DNA of 44,064 nucleotides. It comes from a virus. Below are positions 22,017 to 43,732 of the stretch, one piece after another. The stretch is from IMG/VR virus record IMGVR_UViG_3300046004_001078, positions 1 through 44,064 of that record; one strand, written 5' to 3'. How positions within the stretch are numbered: position 1 is the stretch's first letter; each line of letters begins with the position of its first letter. The notes under the pieces are model-generated. The model saw only the letters and a list, made by a program, of their open reading frames with translations, did not search any database and had not been told where the DNA came from. Made by a program: the position numbers and the translations under genes.

Positions 22017-22050
22017 GCCCGACGGAGTGGTTACCGTCGGGCTTTTTATT
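22017..22050 (+). terminator. Strong intrinsic terminator ending the lysis operon
   Basis: GCCCGACGG (22017-22025) pairs perfectly with CCGTCGGGC (22034-22042) and is followed by TTTTTATTT. It closes the virion and lysis transcription units before the early region. Confidence 0.92.
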
Positions 22051-25834: not shown

Positions 25835-25852
25835 CCTAAAACTATTTTTACC

Positions 25853-25888
25853 TTTAGTGTAATAATTCAAATAATAGTAGTACCTTAG
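25853..25888 (+). promoter_or_regulatory. Duplicated early promoter, copy 1
   Basis: ACTATTTTTA, then GTAATAATTCAAATAATA (25859-25876), then TACCTTAG (25881-25888). The 18-base core recurs exactly at 29687-29704, also followed by a -7 box. The gap from TTTA (25853) to the -7 box is 24 bases, longer than usual. It drives the gene at 25917. Confidence 0.6.
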
Positions 25889-25916
25889 CGTTATTATTAA
25901 CCACAATAACCACAAC

Positions 25917-29663: not shown

Positions 29664-29681
29664 TTTCAACTATTTTTATAC

Positions 29682-29716
29682 TTTGCGTAATAATTCAAAT
29701 AATAAGGCTATCTTTG
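29682..29716 (+). promoter_or_regulatory. Duplicated early promoter, copy 2
   Basis: TTTG (29682-29685), the repeated GTAATAATTCAAATAATA (29687-29704) and TATCTTTG (29709-29716). Matches the element at 25853-25888, including ACTATTTTTA on the 5' side. The next ATG is at 29746. Confidence 0.7.
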
Positions 29717-29745
29717 TTTTACACTTAACCACTAAAGCACAGGAA

Positions 29746-29922
29746 ATGAAAGTAGTTATCACAAATCAAGAATTATTTAACGGAACTGACGTAGAATTGA
29801 ACCTTACCCAATCGTTTAATGGAACTCTTAGAGGAGATGTTACAATTAACGGCATTACCCATACAGGTGAACATGGTAAATATTCTTATGAAGATGAATT
29901 TGGTTTTGTTATTGAAGATTAA
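29746..29922 (+). CDS. Small hypothetical protein
   Basis: A 58-residue beta-rich protein (VELNLTQSFNGTLRGDVTIN, then GEHGKYSYEDEFGFVIED). I use the ATG at 29746 because an upstream ATG at 29683 precedes the promoter's -7 box. Family not recognised. Confidence 0.55.
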   Translation: MKVVITNQELFNGTDVELNLTQSFNGTLRGDVTINGITHTGEHGKYSYEDEFGFVIED

Positions 29923-29934
29923 AATTATTATACC

Positions 29935-30129
29935 ATGAGTAATTATAAAATGGAAATTGTTGAAAAGTCTTATTGCTGCGACTATGATGTTGCTTGGGTA
30001 AAAGGCTCTTACATGGGCAGCGGAGAATGGGAGTGTTGTCGTTGCAATAGACCTTGCCAAACATACAAAAAGGAAGTAAAGATTTTTGTTAGACCAAAAG
30101 TGCCAAAAAATTTTAAACCGTATAACTAA
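29935..30129 (+). CDS. Small cysteine-rich protein, zinc-site candidate
   Basis: A 64-residue protein with CC at residues 14-15 and CCRCNRPC near 34-41, which could bind one zinc ion. The C-terminus is basic (VRPKVPKNFKPYN). Not recognised. Confidence 0.55.
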   Translation: MSNYKMEIVEKSYCCDYDVAWVKGSYMGSGEWECCRCNRPCQTYKKEVKIFVRPKVPKNFKPYN

Positions 30130-30143
30130 AAAATACTAATAAA

Positions 30144-30404
30144 ATGAAAGTTTTTATCGAAATAACGGGAAAACCCACTGGCAATCGTATATTATTAAAT
30201 GCTATTAGTACTCATGAAAGCGTTATTACCATTTTGCATTTTGGACAGTTTAGCATACTTTTTCCGAATTATGTTACTGCTATTAAGGCGTTGCAAGATG
30301 CCTTTGAAACCTTGAAAAATGATGAGCCTGATTTTAAGAGGATAGAATTAATGCTTCACCAGAATATCTTAATTTACGATGCCAGTATGGCAAAAATCAA
30401 TTAA
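30144..30404 (+). CDS. Hypothetical protein
   Basis: An 86-residue protein of mixed strands and helices (VFIEITGKPTGNRILLNA, ALQDAFETLKNDEPDFKRIE). No family recognised. In line with neighbours at short spacing. Confidence 0.55.
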   Translation: MKVFIEITGKPTGNRILLNAISTHESVITILHFGQFSILFPNYVTAIKALQDAFETLKNDEPDFKRIELMLHQNILIYDASMAKIN

Positions 30405-30413
30405 CATACGGTT

Positions 30414-30644
30414 ATGAAACAAATAATAGTAGGTGTATCGGAGGCGTTTAGTATGCAGCCAGTTAAGTACACAGTAGGAAGCGAAATTTGGGGACACCTA
30501 AATAATGCTAAAATAGCAAGAATAGAACTTGAATCTATGCAGCCAACAAGTGATATGGTTGTATCTATTTATGTTGCTTACGATAGTGATAATCATAAAA
30601 TAGCCGAATTTATCGCTGCTGCTGTAAATGTTTACTATCAATGA
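30414..30644 (+). CDS. Hypothetical protein
   Basis: A 76-residue protein (KQIIVGVSEAFSMQPVKYTVG). Coupled by ATGA to the HNH-like gene. Not recognised. Confidence 0.55.
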   Translation: MKQIIVGVSEAFSMQPVKYTVGSEIWGHLNNAKIARIELESMQPTSDMVVSIYVAYDSDNHKIAEFIAAAVNVYYQ

Positions 30645-30970
30645 GACCATTTACACCACAGCCCAAACCCGAACCACGGGAAAAGAAACCCAAGACAAAG
30701 ATTAAACCCGTAAGCACTAAGCAAGCTAAAGCACTAACCGAATACTCAAAAGTGCGGAAACAGTTTTTAGCGGAGCATTTATATTGCGAAGCTAATTTAA
30801 CGGGGTGTACAACGGTTGTACAAGATGTGCACCATACTATCGGTAGGGGCGCAAATTTAAGCAACGTAGATACATTTTTAGCCGTTTGCCGTACTTGCCA
30901 TAGGTTCATTGAAGATAACCCAACAGAAGCCTTAAAAATGGGCTTTAGTAAAAAGAGATTACATGGCTAG
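30641..30970 (+). CDS. HNH-like / NinG-type zinc protein
   Basis: A 109-residue protein with a basic, proline-rich start and a zinc-HNH pattern: C49 and C56, then VHH (H64, H65) GRG, then CRTCH (C83, C86, H87) and a short helix. The layout is that of HNH nucleases and the phage NinG-like family. It probably cuts or binds branched DNA during replication. It overlaps both neighbours. Confidence 0.65.
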   Translation: MRPFTPQPKPEPREKKPKTKIKPVSTKQAKALTEYSKVRKQFLAEHLYCEANLTGCTTVVQDVHHTIGRGANLSNVDTFLAVCRTCHRFIEDNPTEALKMGFSKKRLHG

Positions 30971-31340
30971 ACAATTAGGTCAACAAGATGTTAAAGAGGG
31001 TGAAATTTGCCAATGCAATAAATGTAAATTGCCTTTTGTTAAAACGCCCGACAACTTTTACTATCGGTCAAACGGCATAATACGTAGCTACGTTTGCAAA
31101 GGTTGTTATTACCAATACACTAAAGCACGGCTATACGAATGCAGGGCGCAAGTAAAAGAACCCAAACCCGAAAGGAAACAGAACCTATTGGAAGTGGTTA
31201 ATACTCGCACATTTCCAAAAGGACACCCAATGAACCCGACTAAAGAACAACGGGCGGCACTAATTCAACAAATCGAAAACAGAAGGTACTACAAAGATGA
31301 AAATTTGCACCAAGTGCCAACAACCAAAAGCAGCGACTAA
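30963..31340 (+). CDS. Zinc-finger-like protein 1
   Basis: A 125-residue protein with CQCNKC (C16, C18, C21) and CKGC (C45, C48) separated by FYYRSNGIIRSYV. The next gene shows the same plan (CTKC, YYYVYRNGLLRNE, CIKC), so the two seem to be paralogues from a tandem duplication. Basic overall, possibly nucleic-acid binding. Confidence 0.6.
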   Translation: MARQLGQQDVKEGEICQCNKCKLPFVKTPDNFYYRSNGIIRSYVCKGCYYQYTKARLYECRAQVKEPKPERKQNLLEVVNTRTFPKGHPMNPTKEQRAALIQQIENRRYYKDENLHQVPTTKSSD

Positions 31341-31650
31341 GCAATACTATTACGTGTACCGTAACGGCTTACTACGCAACGAGTGTATAAAGTGCATAAG
31401 TGAACGGGCAGCCTATAATTACTCGTTAAGACAGGCACGTAAACTAATTGCTAAAGAACTTTTACCAGAGTGGATAGACCGTCCGAAAGCAAGGGTAATA
31501 GTTGATGCAAAGACCCCTCAAAAGGTTATGCCTAATTACCCCGATAGGTTGTCAGAATATCACAAGGCAATGGAAACGCTGGAGCGCAATCCTAGCTTTT
31601 TTCGGTGGTTGTGTAGTGGTGAAAATTATTACCATAAATTTGCAAAATAG
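31297..31650 (+). CDS. Zinc-finger-like protein 2
   Basis: A 117-residue protein with CTKC (C4, C7) and CIKC (C30, C33) in the same arrangement as the gene before it, which it overlaps by 44 bases in another frame. After the finger, a basic helical segment (LRQARKLIAKELLPEWIDRPK). It could be a small regulator or DNA-binding protein. Confidence 0.6.
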   Translation: MKICTKCQQPKAATKQYYYVYRNGLLRNECIKCISERAAYNYSLRQARKLIAKELLPEWIDRPKARVIVDAKTPQKVMPNYPDRLSEYHKAMETLERNPSFFRWLCSGENYYHKFAK

Positions 31651-31670
31651 CTGAATAACCCGTATATTAG
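31639..31670 (+). promoter_or_regulatory. Promoter of the structured leader
   Basis: TTTG (31639-31642), 20 bases, TATATTAG (31663-31670), which differs by one base from TAnnTTTG. Transcription should start near 31675-31677, just before the first hairpin of the leader. Confidence 0.6.
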
Positions 31671-31676
31671 CGGAAC

Positions 31677-31797
31677 GATATTAAACTAATACTATTGGCT
31701 CGGAAACAATAGCGTTAGATTCAAAAATTAACTTATAGCCCTTTTGTTGCCGTAGCCTATTCCGAGTAGGTGAAAGCGCAAAGGGGCTTTTTATTTT
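31677..31797 (+). ncRNA. Structured leader with complementary hairpin loops and a terminator-like stem
   Basis: Hairpin 1: CTATTG (31692-31697), loop GCTCGGAAA, CAATAG (31707-31712). Outer stem: AGCCCTTTTG (31737-31746) with CAAAGGGGCT (31779-31788), one G-U, then TTTTATTTT and the ATG. Inside it hairpin 2: GCCTA (31755-31759), loop TTCCGAG (31760-31766), TAGGT (31767-31771). CTCGGAA of loop 1 is a perfect complement of loop 2, allowing a 7-bp kissing contact. The stem and T-run look like a terminator or start-blocking element. No known riboswitch is recognised. Confidence 0.72.
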
Positions 31798-32331
31798 ATG
31801 GATAATTCAAATCCTTTTTATTTGTGGAAGCCGAAAGATGCCTTTGCAGATATACAAATGAACGACTTAACTCTTATTGAAGAGGGAGCGTATAGAAGGT
31901 TACTAGACTTTTGCTGTATTAATGGTTGGTTGCCAAACGACAATAAATCTTTGACTAGAATAGTCGGTAAAGGTTGTGATGGAGATGTAATAAATAGGAT
32001 TAAACCACTATTTTATGTAGTTGGCGATAAGCTGTATAGCGATATAATTCAGTGCTATAAAAAAGAAACGTTTTGCTACATAGCTTACAACCCCGATACA
32101 TTGCTTTATAAGATAGGGGCTAGTAGTAATTTAATAAATCGTTCAAGTTCACTAAAGCAGCACGGTAAAAACATTACTATAATTTGCTTTTTTATTGGTG
32201 GCTTTCAAAAAGAAAGGGAGTTGCATACTTTTTATGAAAGTTTAAGAGAGCACGGCGAATGGTTTAATCTTACACAAAAAGACCTTGATATAATAATTTC
32301 TGAAAACCAAGCTCAATACTTTTCAAAATGA
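31798..32331 (+). CDS. DUF1376-like domain fused to GIY-YIG (T5orf172-like) nuclease domain
   Basis: A 177-residue protein. Residues 1-90 (LWKPKDAFADIQMNDLTLIEEGAYRRLLD, LPNDNKSL) are a DUF1376-type replication-initiator domain. Residues 93-165 (CYIAYNPDTLLYKIGASSNLINRSSSL, then GGFQKERELHTFYESLREHGEWF) are a GIY-YIG relative of T5orf172 type. The next gene is a fuller DUF1376 protein, so the first may be a copy into which a nuclease domain was joined. It could promote homing or cleave other phages' DNA. Its start lies at the end of a structured leader. Confidence 0.7.
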   Translation: MDNSNPFYLWKPKDAFADIQMNDLTLIEEGAYRRLLDFCCINGWLPNDNKSLTRIVGKGCDGDVINRIKPLFYVVGDKLYSDIIQCYKKETFCYIAYNPDTLLYKIGASSNLINRSSSLKQHGKNITIICFFIGGFQKERELHTFYESLREHGEWFNLTQKDLDIIISENQAQYFSK

Positions 32332-33068
32332 GTAAATCACCAGCATTTCAATTATATGCAGCCGACTTCTATATGGGTACGGACGAAATGACAGCAGCTC
32401 AAGTTGGTGGTTATATCCGTTTGCTTTGTAAGCAATGGGACAAAAATTACCTTCCTTTTGATAAAAAAGTACTAAAAAAGTGGACAGAATTAAGCAACAA
32501 AGATTTGAATATTGTGCTGGAAAAGTTTGTAAAAAATGAACACGGGTACATAAATGAACGCTTAGAGCAAGAACGACAAAAGCAAGAGCAATACAGGCTT
32601 TCACGAAGCGAAGCAGGTAAGATTGGCAACCAAAAGCGATGGAAGGATGTATCGCATAGCGATGGTAAAAGTATCGCAGACGACTCGCAAAACCATCGCT
32701 CTTCATCTTCATCTTCATCTTCATCTTCATCTTCTAATTCCATAAAAGAAAAAGAAATAGATAAAGAAAAAATCGAAGCGCAATTTCCCGACAACTTTAC
32801 AGACGACCATAAAAAACTTTGGTTTCAATATGAGCAAGTACGGGAGTCAATACCTAAACCACCTTATTCACCAGCAACAAGACAATTAGCCATAAACGAA
32901 TTTGTTGCTAGTGCTAGTTGCGACCCTAAAAAATATACCGAAGGATTAAAGGCAAGTATTCAAGGTGCATGGGTTAGCCCGAAATGGTTTGCACCCAAAC
33001 AAAACAAGTACACACCCGAACCACAAACAACGTCAGTATCAGCACCTAAAAAGATAAAATATGAATGA
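32328..33068 (+). CDS. DUF1376 replication-associated protein with polyserine linker
   Basis: A 246-residue protein. Residues 1-95 form DUF1376 (FQLYAADFYMGTDEMTAAQVGGYIRLLCKQW), residues 125-136 are twelve serines, and the C-terminal part is helical with PYSPATRQLAINEF. Similar proteins precede dnaB in many phages and are thought to be initiators or helicase loaders. It overlaps dnaB by 8 bases, which supports a loader role. Confidence 0.78.
   Translation: MSKSPAFQLYAADFYMGTDEMTAAQVGGYIRLLCKQWDKNYLPFDKKVLKKWTELSNKDLNIVLEKFVKNEHGYINERLEQERQKQEQYRLSRSEAGKIGNQKRWKDVSHSDGKSIADDSQNHRSSSSSSSSSSSSNSIKEKEIDKEKIEAQFPDNFTDDHKKLWFQYEQVRESIPKPPYSPATRQLAINEFVASASCDPKKYTEGLKASIQGAWVSPKWFAPKQNKYTPEPQTTSVSAPKKIKYE
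32701..32734 (+). repeat. Hexanucleotide tandem repeat (CTTCAT)
   Basis: About 5.7 copies of CTTCAT encode the serine run of the DUF1376 protein. Since the unit is six bases, gain or loss changes linker length without shifting the frame. Confidence 0.9.
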
Positions 33069-34455
33069 GTACGGCAAAATACCACCACAGGCAGTTGACC
33101 TTGAAGGTATTGTTTTAGGAACTATATTATTAGACCGTGAAGCCATGCTAAAAGCCATTGGTATAATTACAATGGACACGTTTTATAAAAACGGGCACGG
33201 GGCTATTTTTAATGCCATGCAAACGCTGTTTAATGACAACGAGCCAATAGATACCATGACGGTATTTAATAGGCTTAAAACACAAGGTAGAATAGACGAA
33301 GCTGGCGGTTTAATGTACATAGTCAAATTAACTGATGGTGTGTCAAGTACCGCACATATTGAAAGCCATTGCAGAATACTTCAGCAAAAATTTATCCAAA
33401 GGGAAATAATACGCATTAGTGCGGAGTCAATGAAAAACGCATACAACGATGAGATAGATGTATTTCAGCTACTAGAGGGTGTTTACAGCGATATAATGAA
33501 AATATCCAACACGCTAACGGGCAAAACAAGTTCAATGCTTTATGATGTATCTCAAAAACTAGCCACTAAAATACTAGAGTTAGCGGATAGTACGGACGAA
33601 TTAACGGGTGTACCTTGTGGCATAACTGACTTGGATAGGTTTACGGGCGGTTGGCAAAGCCCTGATTTAGTGATAGTGGCAGCACGGCCAGGAATGGGTA
33701 AAACTGCTTTTAGTTTAGCAGTTGCTAAAGGTGCTGCACAATTTGGTAGGGCAGTTGCATTCTTTAGCCTTGAAATGTCAGAGGAACAATTAGCAGGGCG
33801 GTTGATTAGCGATGAGTTAAACATTAACAGCGATAGAATAAGAACCCCAACAAGACTAGATAGCACGGATAAGAATGCGCTAATAAACGAGTTGCACAGA
33901 TTAAATATACCAATTTACATTGACGACACGGCAGGATTAAGTATAACGCAATTACGAGCCAAAACCACAGCACTAAAGAAAAAACACAATATTGAAATGA
34001 TAATAGTTGATTACCTTCAGCTAATGACAGGCATAAGCAACGGGGGCAATAGGGACACTATAATAGGCGAAATAACGAGGGGGTTAAAACTAGTTGCCAA
34101 AGAACTAAAGATACCAGTAATAGCCCTATCACAGCTTAGTAGAAAGGTTGAGGAACGAGCCGACAAACGCCCTATGTTATCTGACCTAAGAGAAAGCGGA
34201 AACATAGAACAAGATGCGGATGCGGTAATATTTTTATACCGCCCCGAATACTACAATGTAGAAAGTTATGAGGACGGGCGAAGCACTAAAAATGTATGTG
34301 AGATAATATTTGGCAAGCATAGAAACGGTGGATTAGGAACGATTGAGCAAGGGTTTGACGGTGCTCACAGTCGGTTCTATTCACTAGATACCTTTGAGCC
34401 TAGACCACTAAGCAAGATTAACAGACCGAATGAAGATGACTTTAACGTGTTCTAA
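33061..34455 (+). CDS. dnaB: Replicative DNA helicase, DnaB family
   Basis: A 464-residue DnaB helicase. Residues 8-115 are the N-terminal helical domain (PPQAVDLEGIVLGTILLD). The RecA-like domain carries Walker A ARPGMGKT (208-215), FFSLEMS, Walker B IIVDYLQLM (about 319-327), SQLSRKVEERADKRP and the DLRESGNIEQDAD block. It unwinds the phage replication fork as a hexamer. The upstream DUF1376 gene is likely its loader. No primase domain is fused and none is recognised elsewhere, so host primase may be used. Confidence 0.95.
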   Translation: MNEYGKIPPQAVDLEGIVLGTILLDREAMLKAIGIITMDTFYKNGHGAIFNAMQTLFNDNEPIDTMTVFNRLKTQGRIDEAGGLMYIVKLTDGVSSTAHIESHCRILQQKFIQREIIRISAESMKNAYNDEIDVFQLLEGVYSDIMKISNTLTGKTSSMLYDVSQKLATKILELADSTDELTGVPCGITDLDRFTGGWQSPDLVIVAARPGMGKTAFSLAVAKGAAQFGRAVAFFSLEMSEEQLAGRLISDELNINSDRIRTPTRLDSTDKNALINELHRLNIPIYIDDTAGLSITQLRAKTTALKKKHNIEMIIVDYLQLMTGISNGGNRDTIIGEITRGLKLVAKELKIPVIALSQLSRKVEERADKRPMLSDLRESGNIEQDADAVIFLYRPEYYNVESYEDGRSTKNVCEIIFGKHRNGGLGTIEQGFDGAHSRFYSLDTFEPRPLSKINRPNEDDFNVF

Positions 34456-34493
34456 AAAAAGATTGCAAAAGCGTAAAAATAATTACTTAATAA

Positions 34494-34526
34494 TTTGCGT
34501 AATTAAAAAAAGTAATTGTATATTTG
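34494..34526 (+). promoter_or_regulatory. Promoter of the structured RNA region behind dnaB
   Basis: TTTG (34494-34497) in TTTGCGTAAT, 21 bases, TATATTTG (34519-34526). The TTTGCGTAAT box is shared with the promoter at 29682. No start codon with a good ORF follows for 200 bases, so the first product seems to be RNA. Confidence 0.78.
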
Positions 34527-34541
34527 GAGGGTAGTAATTAA

Positions 34542-34695
34542 GTGAAAGTTCTTTGATAATACAGGGGGTAATGGTTAAGAATAAAGCCATTAATTAACTA
34601 AGGTTATTTTTTTTCGTTACTTAGGTATTTAATGTTCCAGCCCTAGCTTATGGTGCTTAAAGAAAGCAGCCATTACCCCCTTATAATACTTTTAC
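34542..34695 (+). ncRNA. Structured non-coding RNA behind dnaB
   Basis: A 12-bp perfect stem AGGGGGTAATGG (34563-34574) with CCATTACCCCCT (34670-34681) closes a region of 95 bases. An outer stem GTGAAAGT (34542-34549) with ACTTTTAC (34688-34695), one G-U, extends it. Inside are weaker hairpins: CTAAG (34598-34602) with CTTAG (34620-34624) and GCTT/AAGC near 34654-34667. It begins about 10-15 bases after a strong promoter. It could be a leader of the gene at 34736, a free small RNA, or part of a replication origin. Confidence 0.6.
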
Positions 34696-34698
34696 CGC

Positions 34699-34719
34699 CC
34701 GTGGGCGTGTTGCTCACGG
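34699..34719 (+). repeat. Repeated 21-base hairpin, copy 1
   Basis: CCGTGGGC, loop GTGTT, GCTCACGG: an 8-bp stem with one G-U pair. The identical 21 bases recur at 35050-35070, so the pair flanks the gene at 34736-35047. This copy is 16 bases before that gene's ATG and is not followed by a T-run. Confidence 0.88.
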
Positions 34720-34735
34720 ATTTAAAATCAATACA

Positions 34736-35047
34736 ATGGCTAACTATTTTCAGACAGACGATAGGGACGATTATTTTGCTCAATTTGAAAGCAAACCTCG
34801 CATTAAGAAACCCAAACCAAAGGGCTGGGCAAAGTCAAGACGAGAGGAAAAATTTGCCAAGCGTGTTGAGTTAGCCGATAAGATTAAAAAAGTATTGCCA
34901 TTGTACAACGGCATTGATAGGGAAAAGCTAGAGCAGATTGCGACAGAGTTAACGACCCAAAAAAACGTAGCAATTCCTGTGGGAATTACTTGGAAGTGCG
35001 CTGAAACAAAAAGTATTTTGGAGCGCATACATCAATACACATTTTGA
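34736..35047 (+). CDS. Small basic hypothetical protein between hairpin repeats
   Basis: A 103-residue basic protein (RIKKPKPKGWAKSRREEKFAKR, then a helical region and AIPVGITWKCAETKSILERIHQY). Basic N-terminal half suggests nucleic-acid binding. It is enclosed by identical hairpins and large structured RNAs. Family not recognised. An ORF at 34650-34874 in another frame is probably spurious. Confidence 0.55.
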   Translation: MANYFQTDDRDDYFAQFESKPRIKKPKPKGWAKSRREEKFAKRVELADKIKKVLPLYNGIDREKLEQIATELTTQKNVAIPVGITWKCAETKSILERIHQYTF

Positions 35048-35049
35048 AA

Positions 35050-35070
35050 CCGTGGGCGTGTTGCTCACGG
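35050..35070 (+). repeat. Repeated 21-base hairpin, copy 2
   Basis: Identical to 34699-34719, and located two bases after the stop of the enclosed gene. TTTTTT follows 5 bases later (about 35076-35081), so this copy might also end transcription, though the T-run is not adjacent to the stem. Confidence 0.88.
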
Positions 35071-35082
35071 GTAAATTTTTTA

Positions 35083-35137
35083 AACAGTTGCCCACTACTC
35101 ACAATTTGTGCAAAGGCTGTTAGGGTAGTGGGCAGCT
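35083..35137 (+). ncRNA. Structured leader element (long stem or pseudoknot)
   Basis: AGTTGCCCACTAC (35086-35098) pairs with GTAGTGGGCAGCT (35125-35137) over 13 bp with one G-U. AACAG (35083-35087) can alternatively pair with CTGTT (35117-35121), which gives an interleaved pseudoknot order with the core stem. A small CACA/TGTG hairpin lies inside. It ends 13 bases before the ATG at 35151, so it probably regulates that gene. Confidence 0.6.
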
Positions 35138-35150
35138 AAAAAACAAGATT

Positions 35151-35537
35151 ATGAAACCAATTAGAGAATACCTACAACAATTACCATCACCGTACAACAC
35201 ACTTGCTTTAAGTGTAGTTGACGAAAAATACGAAAGCTACCAAGCGGAAGTTGAAAATTTACATCAAGCTATTAGCTGTATGTGTAATTGGGAAAAAATA
35301 CCACAACTATCGGATTTTTGGAATAAAGTATATGATTGGTGTATTGACCCTAATAAACACCAACTACCCCCTATACCAGCGGTAGAAGTTTCCCCCGAAG
35401 TTGAGCAACCTAACAAATTAAATGAACTATTTACCATTATAGAGCAAGTACGCAAAGGGTTAATTGACTTAGAGCAAGAAAACACCCAACTAAGAGCGCA
35501 ACTAGCCGAACTATTAAGTAATCCTAAAGAGTTGTAA
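35151..35537 (+). CDS. Hypothetical protein with C-terminal coiled coil
   Basis: A 128-residue protein. N-terminal helices (IREYLQQLPSPYNTLAL), a cysteine pair (SCMCNW), a proline-rich linker and a C-terminal heptad region (GLIDLEQENTQLRAQLAELL). It follows the structured leader. Family not recognised. Confidence 0.55.
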   Translation: MKPIREYLQQLPSPYNTLALSVVDEKYESYQAEVENLHQAISCMCNWEKIPQLSDFWNKVYDWCIDPNKHQLPPIPAVEVSPEVEQPNKLNELFTIIEQVRKGLIDLEQENTQLRAQLAELLSNPKEL

Positions 35538-35580
35538 ATACGGGCAAAAAGTTGTAACTTAACATTCTAAACAACACAGC

Positions 35581-35931
35581 ATGAGCACATTAACCATAAC
35601 AATAGGCATAGTAGCCCCTGTAATTACTTTTTTGATTGGTAGGTACTTTAGGTCTGAAAGCAAACAGAACTTTAAAAGTATGGAGAAAGAACGGGACTAT
35701 TGGGATTTGCAATATAATAAAATTTTGGCTAATTATATGGCACTAAGAGATAATCCACAAATTCAAATAGTACCCAATATAAACCCCCACCACGCAGCCG
35801 ATAAGGAGTACATAGGCATTTACCCTAACAACGGATTAGAACCAGCGCATTTGACCCGTGAGGAATATCAAAAGGGCGTAAAGCGATTGAAAGATAACCC
35901 CGAAGATAACATACTAACCAATAAAAACTAA
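35581..35931 (+). CDS. Membrane-anchored hypothetical protein
   Basis: A 116-residue protein with one N-terminal hydrophobic helix (LTITIGIVAPVITFLIG) and a charged soluble part. TAACTTAA at 35555-35562 may be a weak -7 box. A host membrane target is possible. Not recognised. Confidence 0.55.
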   Translation: MSTLTITIGIVAPVITFLIGRYFRSESKQNFKSMEKERDYWDLQYNKILANYMALRDNPQIQIVPNINPHHAADKEYIGIYPNNGLEPAHLTREEYQKGVKRLKDNPEDNILTNKN

Positions 35932-35935
35932 GCCA

Positions 35936-36034
35936 ATGACATTACTAGGATTACAGATAATCACAATAATTATAGTTGCGATTATTCTTGAAAAGATTAG
36001 GAGTAAAAAGCTAAATCAATTGTTTAACCAATAA
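35936..36034 (+). CDS. Micro-protein with one membrane helix
   Basis: A 32-residue ORF: LLGLQIITIIIVAIIL followed by a basic tail (EKIRSKKLNQLFNQ). It lies 4 bases after the previous stop and 13 bases before the next gene. The short repeated AAGCCAATGAC / TAAACCAATGAC before this and the next ATG shows similar start contexts. Confidence 0.5.
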   Translation: MTLLGLQIITIIIVAIILEKIRSKKLNQLFNQ

Positions 36035-36047
36035 AAAGACTAAACCA

Positions 36048-36380
36048 ATGACACTAGAAGAACTAATACAACAAAACAAAAACCTTAACGCTGAAATAGC
36101 AGTTAAGAAACGAGAAATAGTGAAATGTGAAGCAACTCAAAGAGAACTAAGGCTAAAAGCTAAAGAACTTATCTTGCCGAATGTTAAATATCCCATTGGC
36201 ACCATGTTTGCATATAAATACCGTTCAAGTACGCAAGCTAAAATAGTAGATTTATTTGTACATCTTTACGATAAGCCACACATTTCATATCGTATTGCGC
36301 CAATATTAAAGGATGGTAACTTAGGAAATCAAGTAGCTTATGGTATTTCGGAAGAAGATATTGCCATACTTGTAAAGTAA
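36048..36380 (+). CDS. Hypothetical protein with N-terminal coiled coil
   Basis: A 110-residue protein with a helical first half (LEELIQQNKNLNAEIAVKKREI) and a beta second half (GTMFAYKYRSSTQAKIVDLFVHL). Not recognised. Confidence 0.55.
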   Translation: MTLEELIQQNKNLNAEIAVKKREIVKCEATQRELRLKAKELILPNVKYPIGTMFAYKYRSSTQAKIVDLFVHLYDKPHISYRIAPILKDGNLGNQVAYGISEEDIAILVK

Positions 36381-36399
36381 CATTATCAAAGATTAACAC

Positions 36400-36407
36400 T
36401 AACTTAG
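36400..36407 (+). promoter_or_regulatory. -7-like box before terminase genes
   Basis: TAACTTAG, the same octamer as before the genes at 19154 and 23939, 16 bases before the ATG at 36424. No clear -33 box. It may start the packaging operon. Confidence 0.38.
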
Positions 36408-36423
36408 CTAAACGAAAGTAATT

Positions 36424-36636
36424 ATGCGTAAACCAAGTGAACAAATAAAGCTAGTAAAGGAAATTTGCAATAAAGTATCTAACGGGGCTAGCATAAGGGC
36501 AGTATTGGCACAAAGCCATAAATACCCTAGCTTTAGTACTTGGTGCGAATGGCTGAATGACAACCAAGAATTAGCGAACCTTTACGCTTGTAGTAGAGAA
36601 ATAAGACATAACCTTGTAGTGTATGGCAGTAGGTAG
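36424..36636 (+). CDS. Truncated paralogue of the terminase small subunit DNA-binding domain
   Basis: A 70-residue protein that aligns with the first 65 residues of the next gene: PSE, then EIC--V--G-SIR--L-QS-KYPS--T---W, then N-EL---Y---RE-R. It contains the helix-turn-helix region only and lacks the C-terminal oligomerisation part. It overlaps its paralogue by 14 bases. It could compete for the packaging site or regulate the operon. Confidence 0.65.
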   Translation: MRKPSEQIKLVKEICNKVSNGASIRAVLAQSHKYPSFSTWCEWLNDNQELANLYACSREIRHNLVVYGSR

Positions 36637-37045
36637 ACCAAGTGAATACAACTTTGAGTTATGTGCCGAAATATGCGAGCACGTTGCAGATGGTTTATCT
36701 ATTCGCAAAGCCTTAAAGCAATCAGACAAATACCCATCTTGGGCTACTTTTCGTAAGTGGAAGTTTGAAAACCCCGAATTACTAACACAATACACGCGCG
36801 CGCGAGAAGACAGAGCCGACACCAAAGACGATAAGATAGACGATATACTAGAGCAGTTAATGACAGGCGAAATAGACCCACAAACGGCAAAGGTATTGAT
36901 AGATACACTTAAATGGCAAATGGGTAAGGAGAATAAGAACGTGTACGGAGATAGCAGCAAGGTTGACGTTACTAGTGGGGGTGATAAGATACAAGACAGG
37001 GTAGTACGGATAGAGGTAGTACCGATGGATAGCCCAAAAGAATAG
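36623..37045 (+). CDS. terS: Terminase small subunit
   Basis: A 140-residue protein with N-terminal helix-turn-helix (GLSIRKALKQSDKYPSWATFRKW), a helical middle (KIDDILEQLMTGEIDPQTAKVLIDTLKWQMGK) and a flexible end, as in small terminase subunits that recognise phage DNA for packaging. Located one HNH gene before the large subunit. An unusual run CGCGCGCG sits near 36797-36804. Confidence 0.82.
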   Translation: MAVGRPSEYNFELCAEICEHVADGLSIRKALKQSDKYPSWATFRKWKFENPELLTQYTRAREDRADTKDDKIDDILEQLMTGEIDPQTAKVLIDTLKWQMGKENKNVYGDSSKVDVTSGGDKIQDRVVRIEVVPMDSPKE

Positions 37046-37070
37046 CATTGCACAATAAATACGTTTATAG

Positions 37071-37101
37071 TTTGTTCATTTGGATAAATAATCGTATTTT
37101 G
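37071..37101 (+). promoter_or_regulatory. Promoter of a near-leaderless transcript
   Basis: TTTG (37071-37074), 20 bases, TATTTTG (37095-37101), then 5 bases to the ATG at 37107. It matches the host promoter pattern except for one base less in the -7 box. Confidence 0.55.
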
Positions 37102-37106
37102 TACGC

Positions 37107-37298
37107 ATGAAAGGACAAATAATACTAATACCGAAAAGCGAAAAGGATATTTTAGCTTACAATACCTTAAAGTCGGCTTGTATAAAAAGTGGAATAAGCT
37201 ACAATACGGTAACGGCATATTTTAGGCGCAACCCTACCGAAACAAGCTATTTCAATAAGGCAACTGGTTTAACTCTTACTAAAACTAGCTTATTATGA
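37107..37298 (+). CDS. Small basic hypothetical protein
   Basis: A 63-residue protein (ILIPKSEKDILAYNTLKSACIKSGISYNTVTAYFRR). The pattern of two helices with SGISYNTV resembles a small DNA-binding homeo-like domain, but not clearly. Coupled by ATGA to the HNH gene. Confidence 0.55.
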   Translation: MKGQIILIPKSEKDILAYNTLKSACIKSGISYNTVTAYFRRNPTETSYFNKATGLTLTKTSLL

Positions 37299-37822
37299 AA
37301 AAGGCTAGTAAGTATCCGCCTAATTGGAAAGAAATTAGAAGTTACATAAAGCAAAGGGATAATAATGTTTGTCAGCATTGCAACGCTAATCAAGGCGATT
37401 TAAGAACATCAAGGTCAGGTAGTGTTTATGAAACACATTTATCGGTTGCCCATTTAGACCATGATGCCGAAAATTGGAATGTAGAGATGGATAGATTATT
37501 ATTGTTATGCCAGCCGTGTCATTTAAAATATGACAAGAAAAGTAATTTAGTAAAATCTCAAATAGCCAGTGCACATAGTCAGAAAATCAGAGTAAAAAAA
37601 GAAAAAACAAATAATGAAAATGATTTAAAACGAATTATAGTTGAGCAAGAGCGTATTATTGATAGAATTATGGGAGGGGGATATGTACCAAGTGGCTCTT
37701 TAGTTTTAGAGAAAAACGATAGTGCTACTAGCTTAACTAAAAAACTAAGAGCAATTGGGATTAGAAAAAATAGGCAAAATTTAATAGAATTAGCCCTATT
37801 AATTACGAGTAAGCTAATTTAA
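37295..37822 (+). CDS. HNH endonuclease
   Basis: A 175-residue protein. The HNH/zinc core is complete: C26xxC29, AHLDHD (H53, H56), an ENWNVEMDRLLLLC stretch and C72xxC75H76. The C-terminal 90 residues form a coiled coil and helices. In many tailed phages an HNH protein beside the terminase is needed for DNA cutting during packaging; otherwise it is a homing nuclease. The place between small and large subunit favours packaging. Confidence 0.82.
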   Translation: MKKASKYPPNWKEIRSYIKQRDNNVCQHCNANQGDLRTSRSGSVYETHLSVAHLDHDAENWNVEMDRLLLLCQPCHLKYDKKSNLVKSQIASAHSQKIRVKKEKTNNENDLKRIIVEQERIIDRIMGGGYVPSGSLVLEKNDSATSLTKKLRAIGIRKNRQNLIELALLITSKLI

Positions 37823-37841
37823 CTATCTTAGTAGCAAAAAG

Positions 37842-37985
37842 ATGACCGACAAGATAGAATATGCCACAGAAGATGAAATAGATGCAGCTATTGACAATTG
37901 CTACCCAACACCACTAGCAAAAATAAGCGCAAGCCTACACTACGACCTTTATGGGTATTTCCCGTTTAATGCCCAACAGAATTGA
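37842..37985 (+). CDS. Small protein coupled to the large terminase
   Basis: A 47-residue ORF (starting MTDKIEYATEDEIDAAIDN) whose TGA overlaps the TTG start of the large terminase. TATCTTAG at 37824-37831 is a possible -7 box. The ORF may be an N-terminal portion split from the terminase or a translational coupler. Confidence 0.5.
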   Translation: MTDKIEYATEDEIDAAIDNCYPTPLAKISASLHYDLYGYFPFNAQQN

Positions 37986-39262
37986 AGATAAACGAAACAT
38001 ACCTACCCTACCTATACGACACCACTCCTTACTTGGTATTTAAGGGAACGGCTGGCAGCGGCAAAAGCGTGTTTTGTGCTCAAAAGATAGTGATTAGAAC
38101 CATATCCGAGCAAGGGCATAGGTTTTTGTGTTTGCGTAAAGTAGGTAGAACCGTACAAGATAGTATTTGGAAGGAAATACTAAGCGCAATAAATGAAAGC
38201 GGTTTCAGTAGTGAGTTTAACCTAAACAAAACTACCCACACCATACTACACATACCCACAGGCAATGAAATAATTTGCATGGGTTTGGATGACAGCGAAA
38301 AGATTAAGTCTATCCACAAACCAACAGGGGTATGGTTAGAGGAAGCCACCGAGTTTACAGTTGACGACTTCAACCAAATAGATACCCGTGTACGGGGTGG
38401 GTTAAACCACTACAAACAAATGCTATTGAGTTTTAACCCTACTGACCACCGTAGTTGGATAAAGTCTTATTTCTTTGATGGAGAGTGGGCAAAAACAACC
38501 GAAATAGATGGAGAGTTAATAACCATTGACCGTAAGATAATTGAAACAAGCTGGCGCAATAACCCATTTTTAAGCATTGAGGATATTGCTAAAATTAAGA
38601 TTAAGGGCGCATCTTCACCAAACTTTCATAGGGTATATTTTTTGGGTGAGTGGGGTACACCAGAAGTATCTAATCCATTTCTTTATATGTGGAAAGATAG
38701 CTTTATAGACGACACAATAGAAGTCAACCCCAAACTAACATTATACGTTAGCTTTGACTTTAACGTAAGCCCTGCAACCGCAACCGTCCATCAGTTTGGG
38801 CATGATTTTTACTACACACTAGATGAATTTAGACTAATAAGCGCAAAGGACAGGCAAGTAGAAGAAAGCTATACAGAGGAGTTATGTAAATACATCAAGA
38901 CAAAGTACGGGGGTATGCACATAAGAGTAACAGGCGATGCAACCGCCATGAGCCGTAAAGCCAATAGTAGGTTAACGGACTTCCAAATAATCCAAAACGT
39001 ATTGAACCCTGCAAAGATGGATTTCCTACGTAAGAACCCAAGCCATGCAGAAAGCAGCGCACTAAGCAACGCCATATTTTCAAGACACCCGAATAGGAAG
39101 GTACACCCCCGTTGTGAATACTTGATAGAGGACTTTAGAACGATAGAATATGCGGACAGTTCAATAGTCAAGCCAAAGGATAGAATGGTGGGTCACTTGC
39201 TTGATACACAACGCTACATGGATAACACCTACTTTGGTAACTACTTGCAAAGTTTACGTTAA
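37982..39262 (+). CDS. terL: Terminase large subunit
   Basis: A 426-residue packaging motor of the PBSX/terminase_3 type. ATPase: Walker A GTAGSGKS (residues 22-29), Walker B VWLEEATE (117-124), coupling motif SFNPT (150-154). Nuclease: D259 (SFDFN), D319 (TGDATA) and D408 (HLLDTQRYMD) as metal ligands. It starts with TTG overlapping the previous stop. It pumps DNA through the portal and cuts the concatemer. Confidence 0.94.
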   Translation: MKINETYLPYLYDTTPYLVFKGTAGSGKSVFCAQKIVIRTISEQGHRFLCLRKVGRTVQDSIWKEILSAINESGFSSEFNLNKTTHTILHIPTGNEIICMGLDDSEKIKSIHKPTGVWLEEATEFTVDDFNQIDTRVRGGLNHYKQMLLSFNPTDHRSWIKSYFFDGEWAKTTEIDGELITIDRKIIETSWRNNPFLSIEDIAKIKIKGASSPNFHRVYFLGEWGTPEVSNPFLYMWKDSFIDDTIEVNPKLTLYVSFDFNVSPATATVHQFGHDFYYTLDEFRLISAKDRQVEESYTEELCKYIKTKYGGMHIRVTGDATAMSRKANSRLTDFQIIQNVLNPAKMDFLRKNPSHAESSALSNAIFSRHPNRKVHPRCEYLIEDFRTIEYADSSIVKPKDRMVGHLLDTQRYMDNTYFGNYLQSLR

Positions 39263-39275
39263 AATATTATCTTTA
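39245..39275 (+). promoter_or_regulatory. Promoter of tail operon (near-leaderless)
   Basis: TTGC (39245-39248), 19 bases, TATCTTTA (39268-39275), 5 bases before the ATG at 39281. It lies over the end of the large terminase gene and probably starts the tail gene transcript. Confidence 0.58.
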
Positions 39276-39280
39276 CACCT

Positions 39281-39652
39281 ATGAACTGTTTAAATTGCAC
39301 CCCCATATCCAAACTAATAAGCCCTTCCGTTGGCTTTACTTTTGGCGATAGCTTTACCGTTGGTAGCGACTATCGAATATACATTGAAAACACTGCAATC
39401 AACCAACTACATTTTGAAGATGTTGAAGCCGATGCCGATGGTGCGGTAACTTTAGACATGGAGTTCCCCGATGAACATTTTTACCACCCTAACGCAACCT
39501 ATAAGATATGGGTAACGGAGTTAGGTGGGTTATTGTACGACACGGTGGACATAACCAAAGGGGCGTTAACTTACGTATGCCTATCGGTTAAATTTGATAA
39601 CATCATTGGCACTACTAACGTACTTACTAACCAACCAACTCAAACGCTATGA
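39281..39652 (+). CDS. Hypothetical tail-region protein
   Basis: A 123-residue beta-rich protein with CxxC at the start (MNCLNCTP). VGFTFGDSFTVGSDYRIYIEN and VTLDMEFPDEHF suggest an immunoglobulin-like or similar beta sandwich. First gene of the tail operon. Not recognised. Confidence 0.55.
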   Translation: MNCLNCTPISKLISPSVGFTFGDSFTVGSDYRIYIENTAINQLHFEDVEADADGAVTLDMEFPDEHFYHPNATYKIWVTELGGLLYDTVDITKGALTYVCLSVKFDNIIGTTNVLTNQPTQTL

Positions 39653-39924
39653 TAGCAGCATTAATTGTAAACGCTTTGTACATCTTTGGGCTAAAGGCTG
39701 CAATGGGTGACGGCATGATACTAGGGTTTGTACCTACCAAGCTACAAAGTTTACCAGAGTGGCTAAAAATGCCCTTGTTTAGCTGTCCTATTTGCATGGC
39801 TAGTATTCATAGTTATGTAGGTTTTGCTTACATAGGTGCAAGTATTGAAACCTTGTTAATTATGCCTTTTTACATTGTTATGCTGGCAGGGTTAAACTTT
39901 ATTGTAATAAATTTATTAGATTAA
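39649..39924 (+). CDS. Membrane protein with CPIC motif
   Basis: A 91-residue protein with hydrophobic segments at the N-terminus (IAALIVNALYIFGLKAAM) and at about residues 54-88, and FSCPICMAS between them. Similar small CPxC membrane proteins occur in Bacteroidetes phages; function unknown. It does not look virion-associated despite its place in the tail operon. Confidence 0.6.
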   Translation: MIAALIVNALYIFGLKAAMGDGMILGFVPTKLQSLPEWLKMPLFSCPICMASIHSYVGFAYIGASIETLLIMPFYIVMLAGLNFIVINLLD

Positions 39925-39935
39925 ACACTAAGACA

Positions 39936-40133
39936 ATGATGGACTTTAAACCAATATCACAATACGAACCAAAAGAAGGTGATATAATACTTGGAAAAAA
40001 TAGCGAAACATCTTTTAATGTGCTTTACGTTAAAAGTGGCTATTCAAAAAATCAATTAAATTTGGTGGGGTACGATGGCAATTTATACCTAGCCCCAAAG
40101 CAATATTTAATGATTAAAGAATCTACCCAATGA
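39936..40133 (+). CDS. Small hypothetical protein
   Basis: A 65-residue protein (FKPISQYEPKEGDIILGKN, NVLYVKSGY), probably a small beta barrel. Starts ATGATG, so the first methionine may be at 39936 or 39939. Coupled by ATGA to the chaperone gene. Not recognised. Confidence 0.55.
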   Translation: MMDFKPISQYEPKEGDIILGKNSETSFNVLYVKSGYSKNQLNLVGYDGNLYLAPKQYLMIKESTQ

Positions 40134-40807
40134 TAGCCTACCTATACAAAAACAACGAATGGTTTAGAGCCAAAGTAAATAAGCTATGGCATTATAAAGG
40201 CGATACCCTTAAAGGCACGGAGTTTGCGTTTGTAGACGCACAAGGGCGCAAGTATTTTAAGTTTATTGATGACATGGATATTCCTGTTATCCGTAAAGGT
40301 CAAATACAACTATTCCTAACCGAACTATCAAGGGGGCTAGACAGCAACGAAACGGCTATGTTCTTAGATAACATGGAGAAACAAATTGAAGCAGCTTTGG
40401 CAATGCCTAAGAACGTAGCAGGGGTATCTAAGTACCTTGCAAGCCTATCGCATATAGTAGGGGAAATGAAACTACGCAAAGACAATATTTTGCACCCTAC
40501 CTTGTTAATGGATATGGCTGCAATAATGTTTATTCGTGAGGATGAAAACCCGTTTGAGTTTGACCGCAAGATACACAACGAAAAGGTAGAAACATTCACC
40601 AACGATGTAAGCGAAAGGATAGGGCTATACGATTTTTTCGTGCAAGCCAAGTTGAACGCATACATACCGTATTTAGAACAGTTGACGCAAGACTTCAAGG
40701 GCTTGTATCAGTATCTGAAAATGAAGATAGAAGCGGAGAACTTGGCAATCGAGACATACTATGGTACAGAGCCGAACTATACACACAAGGAAACAACCAA
40801 GAAATAG
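40130..40807 (+). CDS. Tail assembly chaperone, zero-frame product
   Basis: A 225-residue helical protein directly before the tape measure, the usual place of the tail assembly chaperone (lambda gpG type). The zero-frame gene contains the canonical slippery heptamer T TTT TTC at 40633-40639, and the -1 frame stays open from 40564 to 40959. The chaperone keeps the tape measure soluble while tail tube subunits are recruited. Confidence 0.65.
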   Translation: MIAYLYKNNEWFRAKVNKLWHYKGDTLKGTEFAFVDAQGRKYFKFIDDMDIPVIRKGQIQLFLTELSRGLDSNETAMFLDNMEKQIEAALAMPKNVAGVSKYLASLSHIVGEMKLRKDNILHPTLLMDMAAIMFIREDENPFEFDRKIHNEKVETFTNDVSERIGLYDFFVQAKLNAYIPYLEQLTQDFKGLYQYLKMKIEAENLAIETYYGTEPNYTHKETTKK

Positions 40808-40959
40808 AATTACTATCACTAGCCAATGGCGACCCGTTGGTATTTGATAGGATTAAACGAATGACAGTAAACGAGTGGCTAAACTTAGTGATATATGGCT
40901 TTAGAACAAGTAACAGTAGAGTACAACCTAGCGTTGGAGAAAGCAAAAGCCCAGTTTGA
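40639..40959 (+). CDS. Tail assembly chaperone, -1 frameshift extension
   Basis: In the -1 frame relative to the gene at 40130 the sequence is open from 40564 to a TGA at 40957-40959, past the zero-frame stop. It encodes WYRAELYTQGNNQEIELLSL, then FDRIKRMTVNEWLNLVIYGF, a protein-like segment that lacks its own early start codon. A slip at T TTT TTC (40633-40639) would give a fusion of about 276 residues (lambda gpGT type). The slip could occur later at a non-canonical site, since the zero frame also looks coding up to its end. It overlaps the tape measure start by 65 bases. Confidence 0.62.
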   Translation, partial: RASQVERIHTVFRTVDARLQGLVSVSENEDRSGELGNRDILWYRAELYTQGNNQEIELLSLANGDPLVFDRIKRMTVNEWLNLVIYGFRTSNSRVQPSVGESKSPV

Positions 40960-43528
40960 GGCGTTTGTTAAAACCGTACAGCAGGGTGAAAAGAAAGTAG
41001 TGGAAGGTGCAGTTACCACAAGCAAAACCATTACGGCAGAGGAAGAAAAAGCACATAGTAAGCGCAAAGCCATTAGAGCGCAAGAAGAACAACAATTAAC
41101 CGAAATCCAAAAGAAACGAAAGAAAGCATATTCACCCGATGAAATAGTACAATACAACAAAACAATAGAAGAAACTAGCAAGCGTGTAAAAGCGGTAACA
41201 TCTGAAACGCAAAATCTTGAAAAGGGCAACGGCAACCTAATTACAAGTTTTAGAAGTATTGCAGGTGCGGTGGGTATTGCTTTTGGTATTCAAGAATTAT
41301 TAGCGTTTGGTAAAGAACTTGTGCAATTAGGATATAAATCACAAGGCGTAACAAAAGCCTTTAATGCTATTGCAAGTTCGCAGGATTTGGGGGCATTAAG
41401 AGCATCAACAGGATTTGCGGTAAGTGACCTGCAACTAAAGCAGTTAGCGGTTAAGGCAAACACTTTTAAAATATCACTTGAAACATTACCTACCTTATTA
41501 AAGTTTGCTACAATTAGGGCATCGGAAACAGGACAAGAAGTTGATTATTTGGTTGACTCAATTATTACTGGCATTGGTAGACAATCACCATTGATATTGG
41601 ATAACTTAGGTATTTCGGCTATTGAGTTACAACAAGAATTTAGGGCAACAGGAGATTTTGCATTAGCAGCGGCAAATATTATTGACCGTGAATTGGCTAA
41701 CTCAGTCACAAGTATAGACGATGCAACTAACGCAATGCAAAGGTTAAACGCAAAGTTTGAAAACTTTAAGGAAACCGCTGGCAATGCACTTGTTAAGCAG
41801 CTAGATGAAATAAGCACTATATTTGGCAGTAACATTTCATTGATTGATAAATACGGGGCTTCGCTTAATTATTTGGGGCAAGCAGTACCTTCATTGGCGT
41901 TCCTGCAATTTATAGGGGACAATGAAAAGCTATATAAGTCAATATTAGAAACAGAAGCGGCACTAGCAAAGTACAATCAAGAAATACAAAACACTTTAAC
42001 CGTAACGGGCGACACCGAAACAAAAATACAGCAGTTAGTTCAGATATTGACTATGCTGGATAAGTTGGTAGCGTCTAATGCGGAAGCTTTTGGATTTGCA
42101 GCGTTAGCCGTTCAACACTACGAAAAGCAATTAAATGAGTTGCAAAACCAAGCCCCCGTAGAAGTTACCGAAACGCTAAAATCTTTAAATGAAGAATTAT
42201 CTTTGTTAAAAGACCAATTTGAAAACACCGATATTAATAGCCCGTTATTTAGAACTTTACAAGCGGAAATTAAAGACCTTGAAGCAAGGATAGAAAGCAT
42301 TACCAACCCAACCAATAAAGGCAGTATTGCGTACTTTGAAGCGCAACTAGCCAAACTAGAGGAACGCTTAAAGAACGCCACAGGCATTGAAAAGATAAAA
42401 GACCTAGAGCATGAAATTTACTTACTAGGTGTTAGGATTGCATCAATGAAAAACCTTGACACGGTATTAGGTTCGGAAATAATAGACAACAGCGTACCAA
42501 CTGACATTGATGCAGCCAACGCAGCAGCCATAAGGTTAATTGAAAGTTTGCAGCTACTTAACGATGTTCAGTTAAACGAACTTAACAAAGAACTTGACAA
42601 GACTAGCAAAGAGTTAACTGACTTAGCTACCCAAGTTACAGATGACTTATGGGATGAGTTTAAAGCTGGCATAGACAGCGCACGGCAAAAGCAAGAAGAG
42701 TTTAACTCTATACTAACGAGTAGCGTAACTACCTTAGTAGGGGACTTAACAGGCTTATTTAGTGCTATTGGAGCGCAACAAGATGAAGCAATTAACCGCC
42801 AACTAGAAGGTGAAAAAACAAGAGCACAAGAGCACTACGATATTATGCGTGGCATTTGGCAAGCGCAACTCGAAAACGGGCAAATAACAAAAGAGGAATT
42901 ATTTAATCAAGAAACTGCATACAACGAAAAGATTAACGCACTTGAAGCAAGGCAAGCGGAAGTAAGACGCCAGCAGTTAAGGAAACAAGCCATTGCGGAA
43001 AAAGCAAACGCTTCGTTTCAGTTGATTATTGGTACTACAACAGCCGTAGCAAAGAACTTAGCGAACCCCCCTGCTATTATTGCTATCTTAGCATTGGCAG
43101 CGGCACAACTAGCGGTAATTGCAGCTACACCGATACCAGAATTTGCAAAGGGTGTGGTAGGTTTGCAAGGTGCTGGAACGGAAACAAGCGATAGCATACA
43201 CGCCAAACTATCCAAAGGTGAAAGCGTAATAACCGCCAAAGCAACACGGGCTAACAAAGATGCGTTAACCGCAATGAACAATGGAGAGTACGAGAAGTTC
43301 GTAACGCAAAAATACATTATGCCAGCGTTGGAAGTAAGACGGGAAAAGCAACGTAATAGCTTTGCCGAAAACATATCAAGGTCAATGCAATCCAGTACTT
43401 ATGACGACAGCCTGTTAATACACGAAACACGTAAAAACAAAGCTGTTAGCATTAGGAATGCAGACCAAATAGGCAAAGCCACCGCACGGGAAATGAATAA
43501 ACAAAGCTACTTTAAAAACAGGGTATGA
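40895..43528 (+). CDS. Tail tape measure protein
   Basis: An 877-residue, helix-rich protein with coiled coils (residues 35-110, 410-510, 660-700), a hydrophobic region near 118-138 (SFRSIAGAVGIAFGIQELLAF) and a second near 705-745 (AIIAILALAAAQLAVIAATPIPEFAKG). AKLSKGESVITAKATRANKDAL at the end is typical of tape measures. It sets tail length and may form the channel in the host membrane. By the usual 1.5 angstrom per residue rule the tail would be near 130 nm; this is only an estimate. Confidence 0.9.
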   Translation: MALEQVTVEYNLALEKAKAQFEAFVKTVQQGEKKVVEGAVTTSKTITAEEEKAHSKRKAIRAQEEQQLTEIQKKRKKAYSPDEIVQYNKTIEETSKRVKAVTSETQNLEKGNGNLITSFRSIAGAVGIAFGIQELLAFGKELVQLGYKSQGVTKAFNAIASSQDLGALRASTGFAVSDLQLKQLAVKANTFKISLETLPTLLKFATIRASETGQEVDYLVDSIITGIGRQSPLILDNLGISAIELQQEFRATGDFALAAANIIDRELANSVTSIDDATNAMQRLNAKFENFKETAGNALVKQLDEISTIFGSNISLIDKYGASLNYLGQAVPSLAFLQFIGDNEKLYKSILETEAALAKYNQEIQNTLTVTGDTETKIQQLVQILTMLDKLVASNAEAFGFAALAVQHYEKQLNELQNQAPVEVTETLKSLNEELSLLKDQFENTDINSPLFRTLQAEIKDLEARIESITNPTNKGSIAYFEAQLAKLEERLKNATGIEKIKDLEHEIYLLGVRIASMKNLDTVLGSEIIDNSVPTDIDAANAAAIRLIESLQLLNDVQLNELNKELDKTSKELTDLATQVTDDLWDEFKAGIDSARQKQEEFNSILTSSVTTLVGDLTGLFSAIGAQQDEAINRQLEGEKTRAQEHYDIMRGIWQAQLENGQITKEELFNQETAYNEKINALEARQAEVRRQQLRKQAIAEKANASFQLIIGTTTAVAKNLANPPAIIAILALAAAQLAVIAATPIPEFAKGVVGLQGAGTETSDSIHAKLSKGESVITAKATRANKDALTAMNNGEYEKFVTQKYIMPALEVRREKQRNSFAENISRSMQSSTYDDSLLIHETRKNKAVSIRNADQIGKATAREMNKQSYFKNRV

Positions 43529-43728
43529 ACTGGATAAAGAAAAAGTTTCACCAATGGTTTATGTGTAAGCACAATTGGCAGGCAATAGGTAAAGAAAGAC
43601 TATGCCATTACGATGACTTTATGTTTGTTTTTCAAAAACATAAATGTTTAAATTGTGGACTAACTAAAGATAGGCACATGACTCAATCGGAATGGAACAA
43701 GGAATGTAATAAAAGATTTGGGCTATAA
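43525..43728 (+). CDS. Small zinc-site protein behind tape measure
   Basis: A 67-residue basic protein: WFMCKHNW, then LCHYDD, then KHKCLNCGLTKDRH. C14, H16, C53 and C56 could hold zinc. It overlaps the tape measure stop by ATGA. Short proteins of this type are often found at this place in Bacteroidetes phages; function unknown. Confidence 0.6.
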   Translation: MNWIKKKFHQWFMCKHNWQAIGKERLCHYDDFMFVFQKHKCLNCGLTKDRHMTQSEWNKECNKRFGL

Positions 43729-43732
43729 AATT

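Follow-up and report, generated by a model that had tools for sequence, protein, structure and literature searches.

Why should one small phage gene be flanked by two identical hairpins? The window analyzed here is a whole IMG/VR phage record of 44,064 bases, and all coordinates are given in its numbering unless another record is named.

The hairpin pair

The 21-base hairpin CCGTGGGCGTGTTGCTCACGG is made of the arms CCGTGGGC and GCTCACGG and the loop GTGTT. It occurs twice on the + strand, at 34699-34719 (copy 1) and at 35050-35070 (copy 2), 351 bases apart from start to start. The preliminary description had placed the same 21 bases just before the ATG and just after the stop of the gene at 34736-35047, and this holds exactly: both copies are identical (21/21), copy 1 lies 16 nt before the ATG of this 103-residue gene, and the stop lies 2 nt before copy 2. 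The identity ends with the hairpin, as the copies have different flanks ('atttaaaatc' 3' of copy 1, 'gtaaattttttaaac' 3' of copy 2). The 44,064-base record contains no third place with three mismatches or fewer, and none of 100 dinucleotide shuffles contained any match to the hairpin. The arms form 8 bp with one G.U wobble, so that the hairpin works for + strand RNA only (folding energy of −12.8 kcal/mol on the + strand and −8.9 kcal/mol on the − strand).

A search of IMG/VR for the exact hairpin gave no further record. The arms with any 5-base loop are found in 75 stretches, most of which look coding or unrelated according to their context and G+C, and only one of these, in the record L025, shares the flanks. 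Five matches in bacteria are, by context, coding-like or resemble unrelated terminators.

The hairpin in related phages

Starting from an alignment of a neighbouring nuclease-like gene, a search identified a related record of 37,641 bases, L246 (full record G107). It aligns to the window piecewise, with 76–100% identity (96.6% over 88 bases that include the promoter described below). At the corresponding site, L246 has the left flank, one hairpin and the right flank, and no gene. When the flanks of the window are joined with one hairpin and compared with L246, 117 of 127 aligned bases are identical, with five 1-base gaps. The whole L246 record contains a single hairpin, with one base changed (GCTAACGG), and no match to the 103-residue protein. 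Because L246 has one hairpin and no gene, the gene and one hairpin copy behave as a 351-bp cassette (34720-35070, + strand; 330 bp with the gene, plus copy 2). This supports the proposal that the hairpins bound a small mobile cassette: between the window and L246, the presence of the second hairpin goes along with that of the gene.

The other relative, L025, is a record of 24,798 bases whose helicase gene is 76% identical in DNA to that of the window. It has two hairpins, 1,160 bases apart, upstream of early genes at a different genome position, and lacks the 103-residue gene. The first is at the end of a corresponding leader with the motif AAAGTTCTTTGA; it has the same left flank (TTTTACCGC), which copy 1 of the window also shares with L246, and a T-rich tail. 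The second follows directly the stop of another small ORF. Two of the five hairpin copies have a stem mismatch and fold with about −7 kcal/mol, against −12.8 kcal/mol for the other three.

The preliminary description had regarded relatives in which hairpin and gene come apart as evidence against its reading. Half of this is observed: the hairpin occurs without the gene once in L246 and twice, at another position, in L025. Since the hairpin occurs without the gene and two of the five copies have a stem mismatch, it does not serve this gene exclusively. The hairpin belongs to a leader found in a small group of phages and is independent of the gene, whereas the gene is tied to a second hairpin copy in the sole genome that carries it.

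The relatives L004 and L005/L006 keep the neighbouring genes without the leader, the hairpin or the gene. The replicative helicase of L004 (8221-10641) and that of L005 (5780-8128) appear to contain an intein-like insert behind GMGK, which is absent from the helicase of the window.

The leader RNA

A promoter of the Bacteroidota type, TTTG-N21-TATATTTG, lies at 34494-34526 on the + strand and is conserved in L246. Matches to the consensus of this promoter type, TTTG-N19-22-TANNTTTG, number five on both strands of the window, versus 1.79 expected by chance; the core TTTGCGTAAT of the leader promoter occurs in the window no more often than chance predicts. The phage is of the Bacteroidota type, and its promoter-like sites point to a host in that phylum.

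The motif AAAGTTCTTTGA follows at 34545-34556 (+ strand). Two longer stem-loops, which were not part of the preliminary description, frame the unit. S2 (34563-34681, + strand) has a perfect 12-bp stem AGGGGGTAATGG/CCATTACCCCCT, with arms at 34563-34574 and 34670-34681, and an interior unlike that of L246. S4 (35086-35137, + strand) has arms at 35086-35098 and 35125-35137 and the loop CAATTTGTGCAAA. Copy 2 is followed by a T-rich stretch, then by S4 and by a gene that starts at 35151. The leader precedes a long run of co-directional genes, since, among the ATG ORFs of the window with 150 residues or more, 29 of 30 are on the + strand. A DnaB-like helicase, terminase subunits and an HNH nuclease are encoded near the unit.

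The stem of S4 keeps 10/10 pairs in the window, L246 and L025, in the last case via compensatory changes: compared with the window, three pairs are changed on both sides and three on one side. The comparison comprises only three sequences, and the L025 stem was aligned by eye. The wobbles of S4 fit + strand RNA only, and its loop CAATTTGTGCAA is shared. Compared with shuffled sequences, the fold has z-scores of −2.0 for the leader of the window, −4.5 for S4 of the window and −4.4 in L246. An Rfam search of the window gave no credible match, and no tRNA or tmRNA was found in it; the leader DNA has no match in annotated phages.

In L246 the order is promoter, 58-residue ORF, boxA-like motif, an extra stem-loop S1, S2 with a different interior, hairpin and S4. 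When L246 15390-15915 is compared with window 34541-35150, arms or linkers of S1 and S2 (TATAATAC) are kept while the interiors are different or missing. The S1/S2 region appears to be a hot spot for small insertions; in L246, a 58-residue ORF is found there instead.

The boxA-like motif

We call AAAGTTCTTTGA boxA-like because of its place in the leader and its likeness to the boxA of E. coli; it matches a motif of Bacteroidota rRNA leaders. Among 99 Bacteroidota genomes, 38 had a match, and 30 16S loci were taken. Five of these 30 loci had less than 130 nt of leader. In 13 of the 30, TTCTTTGA lies in the 300 nt that precede the 16S start. It occurs 15 times in 7,940 nt of 16S leader, versus 3 times in 24,902 nt further upstream.

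In all three phages that have the hairpin, AAAGTTCTTTGA precedes it, and 127–195 nt separate the end of the motif from the leader copy (3/3); in the window, the hairpin starts 142 nt after the motif. The 12-mer AAAGTTCTTTGA is also found in four further loci (of 80) from relatives of the nuclease, where it looks coding by context. At least 120 viral contig stretches, some of them coding, have a promoter followed by AAGTTCTTTGA; leaders of tRNA and tmRNA genes are among them. Examination of 80 of these loci gave 47 distinct phage leaders, 14 of which precede tRNA or tmRNA genes, compared with 5 of 78 random segments. In the viral stretches, the distance from promoter to motif varies broadly, with no peak. 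These loci (L126-L205) suggest that leaders with the promoter and AAGTTCTTTGA are widespread among phages of the Bacteroidota type, where they precede tRNA, tmRNA and numerous unidentified RNA-like leaders.

Searches of openly licensed papers listed none that describes boxA or nut sites for Bacteroidota phages. For processive antitermination in this phylum, passages of PMC12691694 name only the NusG-like factor UpxY.

Is the hairpin a terminator?

A T-rich tail (at least six T among the next 12 nt) follows four of the five hairpin copies, against a background of 8.5% of the window positions. Copy 1 of the window is the one without a tail; copy 2 is followed by GTAAATTTTTT and is terminator-like. 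In a terminator scan of window 30000-44064, copy 2 ranks first among 13 sites, a number which is no excess over the shuffle mean of 11.9. In the same kind of scan of the record L095, an L025 hairpin copy ranks first among 14 sites, and the L246 copy is not among the listed sites. The window also has a clear intrinsic terminator at 22017-22042, between the late and early regions, with a 9-bp G+C-rich stem followed at once by TTTTT. The hairpin is weaker as a terminator than this one, and its T-run begins some nt past the stem, unlike that at 22017-22042. In form, the hairpin and its T-rich tail resemble a terminator that closes the leader or a small gene; with the boxA-like motif ahead, the layout would be like that of a leader in which antitermination overcomes the terminator.

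The 103-residue protein

The gene at 34736-35047 (+ strand, ATG to TGA) encodes a protein that is basic, as previously described, with a pI of 9.6. The first 20 residues are acidic (MANYFQTDDRDDY), and residues 21-58, with a net charge of +10, are rich in K and R (KPKGWAKSRREEKFAKR). A helix is predicted at 35-58 with low confidence. The AlphaFold model is poor (pLDDT 63.8, pTM 0.23) and gave no Foldseek match at E ≤ 0.001. The G+C of the gene is 0.40 (versus 0.39), and its frame is open.

Homologs, in L003/L008 and L009, match the N-terminal 18–21 residues only, with 61–76% identity. The stretch NYFQTDDRDDY (KYFQTDDRDDY in L009) is found in L003 5001-5237, L009 127-378 (− strand) and window 34736-34795, and the remaining parts of the proteins differ; it appears to be a swapped N-terminal module. 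Two weak matches to the protein in 395 Bacteroidota genomes were judged to be due to chance. A comparison with annotated phages at E ≤ 10 gave only E values of 2 to 8 among the matches listed.

The Pfam family N_peptide (PF25694) matches residues 25-78 with an E value of 0.048 and 14.6 bits, the cut-off being 27.9 bits, and WYL_3 outscores it (E 0.013). In six records of this phage group, the 103-residue protein is the only match to N_peptide at E ≤ 10. Among 41 other phage records, which are part of the 80 loci with promoter and AAGTTCTTTGA, a single match reaches E ≤ 1, and its frame contains a stop; matches are found in three to four of 14 control genomes. The alignment to the N protein of P22 pairs GNAKTRRHERR with GWAKSRREEKF, and 20 of 1000 shuffles align as well; for lambda N it is 191 of 1000. 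When the 66 ORFs of the window are ranked by this alignment, the protein comes 2nd for P22 N and 10th for lambda N. The likeness to N_peptide is taken as a lead, not as evidence of membership. The protein could possibly regulate its own expression via the hairpin.

Origin of the hairpin pair

We give an even chance to the reading that the hairpin pair was left by a one-gene cassette at the terminator-like hairpin of a boxA-containing leader RNA. The leader of the phage (promoter, boxA-like motif and stem-loops) would end in this hairpin, and a promoterless unit (16 nt, the gene, 2 nt and one hairpin copy) would sit at it, which leaves a hairpin on both sides. The hairpin would have been duplicated when the gene was inserted here, or the gene deleted in L246. 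The gene would be read from the leader promoter, with transcription ending at the terminator-like right copy, and homologous recombination between identical hairpins would put the gene in or take it out. The boxA-like motif may recruit the host antitermination complex. The element is found in three phages only and the gene in one only, hence gain and loss are indistinguishable.

The cassette resembles several known systems. In T4-type phages, terminator-like intergenic stem-loops (PeSL, promoter early stem-loop) reportedly mediate the shuffling of small genes. Terminator-like intergenic stem-loops and shuffled small genes are common to both cases, but in T4-type phages promoter and stem-loop are repeated together at many intergenic sites, whereas here the repeat consists of a single 21-nt hairpin at two places only, with differing flanks, the promoter lies outside it, and the phages are Bacteroidota-type. 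The morons and boundary sequences of lambdoid phages consist of a single gene between conserved neighbours, with a terminator-like hairpin. These traits are shared, but here the gene has no promoter of its own and a hairpin copy is on both sides. The likeness to antitermination leaders of the rrn type lies in the motif, as AAAGTTCTTTGA equals that of Bacteroidota rRNA leaders, but here it precedes phage protein genes.

Four other explanations were weighed against the cassette. The hairpin might be a processing signal, or it might form the end of the structure of a stable noncoding RNA, namely the leader at about 34530-34720, with the gene merely behind it. The frequency of tRNA and tmRNA genes behind similar viral leaders (14/47 versus 5/78), the folding of the leader and S4 beyond shuffles, and the 10/10 conserved pairs of S4 with three double changes are consistent with this; but the window has no tRNA, tmRNA or credible Rfam match, and the interior of S2 differs between the window and L246, unlike a conserved RNA. 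We consider it unlikely. It is still less probable, and quite doubtful, that the locus is a lambda-N-like unit, in which the protein would be an antiterminator that binds a boxB-like hairpin behind boxA and modifies RNA polymerase for the downstream genes, and may also repress its own translation via the first hairpin. With the same low probability, this would be a lambda-N-like cassette of Bacteroidota phages, with a host rRNA-type boxA, a 21-nt boxB-like hairpin and a small Arg/Lys-rich protein that has an acidic N-terminal module and whose gene lies in its own leader, the cassette being bounded by the RNA target of the protein. The order of promoter, boxA, hairpin and small basic protein is indeed that of lambda pL-nutL-N and P22 pL-nutL-24, the idea was noted before the Pfam scan returned N_peptide, and the P22 N alignment and the predicted helix agree with it. 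However, the N_peptide score is far under the cut-off, WYL_3 scores better, other small ORFs of the window give similar chance matches, and the control genomes and the lambda N shuffles argue in the same direction. Of the features of lambda nut sites, the leader has a boxA-like motif (by motif likeness), but the hairpin is 142 nt from it rather than close behind, has a loop, GTGTT, that is not GNRA-like, and is repeated after the gene. L246 and L025 have boxA and hairpin but neither the gene nor an N_peptide match, although both records may be incomplete, and the late intergenic regions have promoter-like sites of their own.

Integron gene cassettes consist of a promoterless gene and a hairpin, and their empty site has one hairpin. 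Both traits are shared here, and the L025 copy behind another small ORF also fits a site-specific recombination site with the gene as its cassette. Nevertheless, no integrase or other recombinase was found among the 28 window proteins scanned (Pfam or PHROGs), the 21 bases lack the attC core GTTRRRY, and a 21-base homology may suffice for ordinary recombination, which makes this explanation very unlikely. The slimmest chance is given to an assembly artefact, a mixed population joined via the 21-base repeat: the two-copy state is seen in one genome only and the data are metagenome contigs, but L246 has a hairpin base and leader content of its own, and the gene has a normal G+C and an open frame.

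The filled site and the empty site together are a natural experiment on the entry of small genes into phage operons at regulatory hairpins. They also link a Bacteroidota-type phage leader to a boxA-like motif of the rRNA operons of the host phylum. If the protein were an N-type antiterminator, processive antitermination of the lambda kind would extend to Bacteroidota.

Other repeats in the window

Repeats dispersed in early intergenic regions (25840-25915 and 29668-29751 in the window; 4625, 8203 and 10320 in L246) are probably early promoters. In the late region, the palindrome TTTAGAnnnnTCTAAA occurs at three intergenic places (2325-2340, 8063-8078 and 12451-12466), where 0.18 are expected. 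Two of these palindromes adjoin promoter-like sites, at 8082 and 12430, and they are likely operators of a phage regulator.
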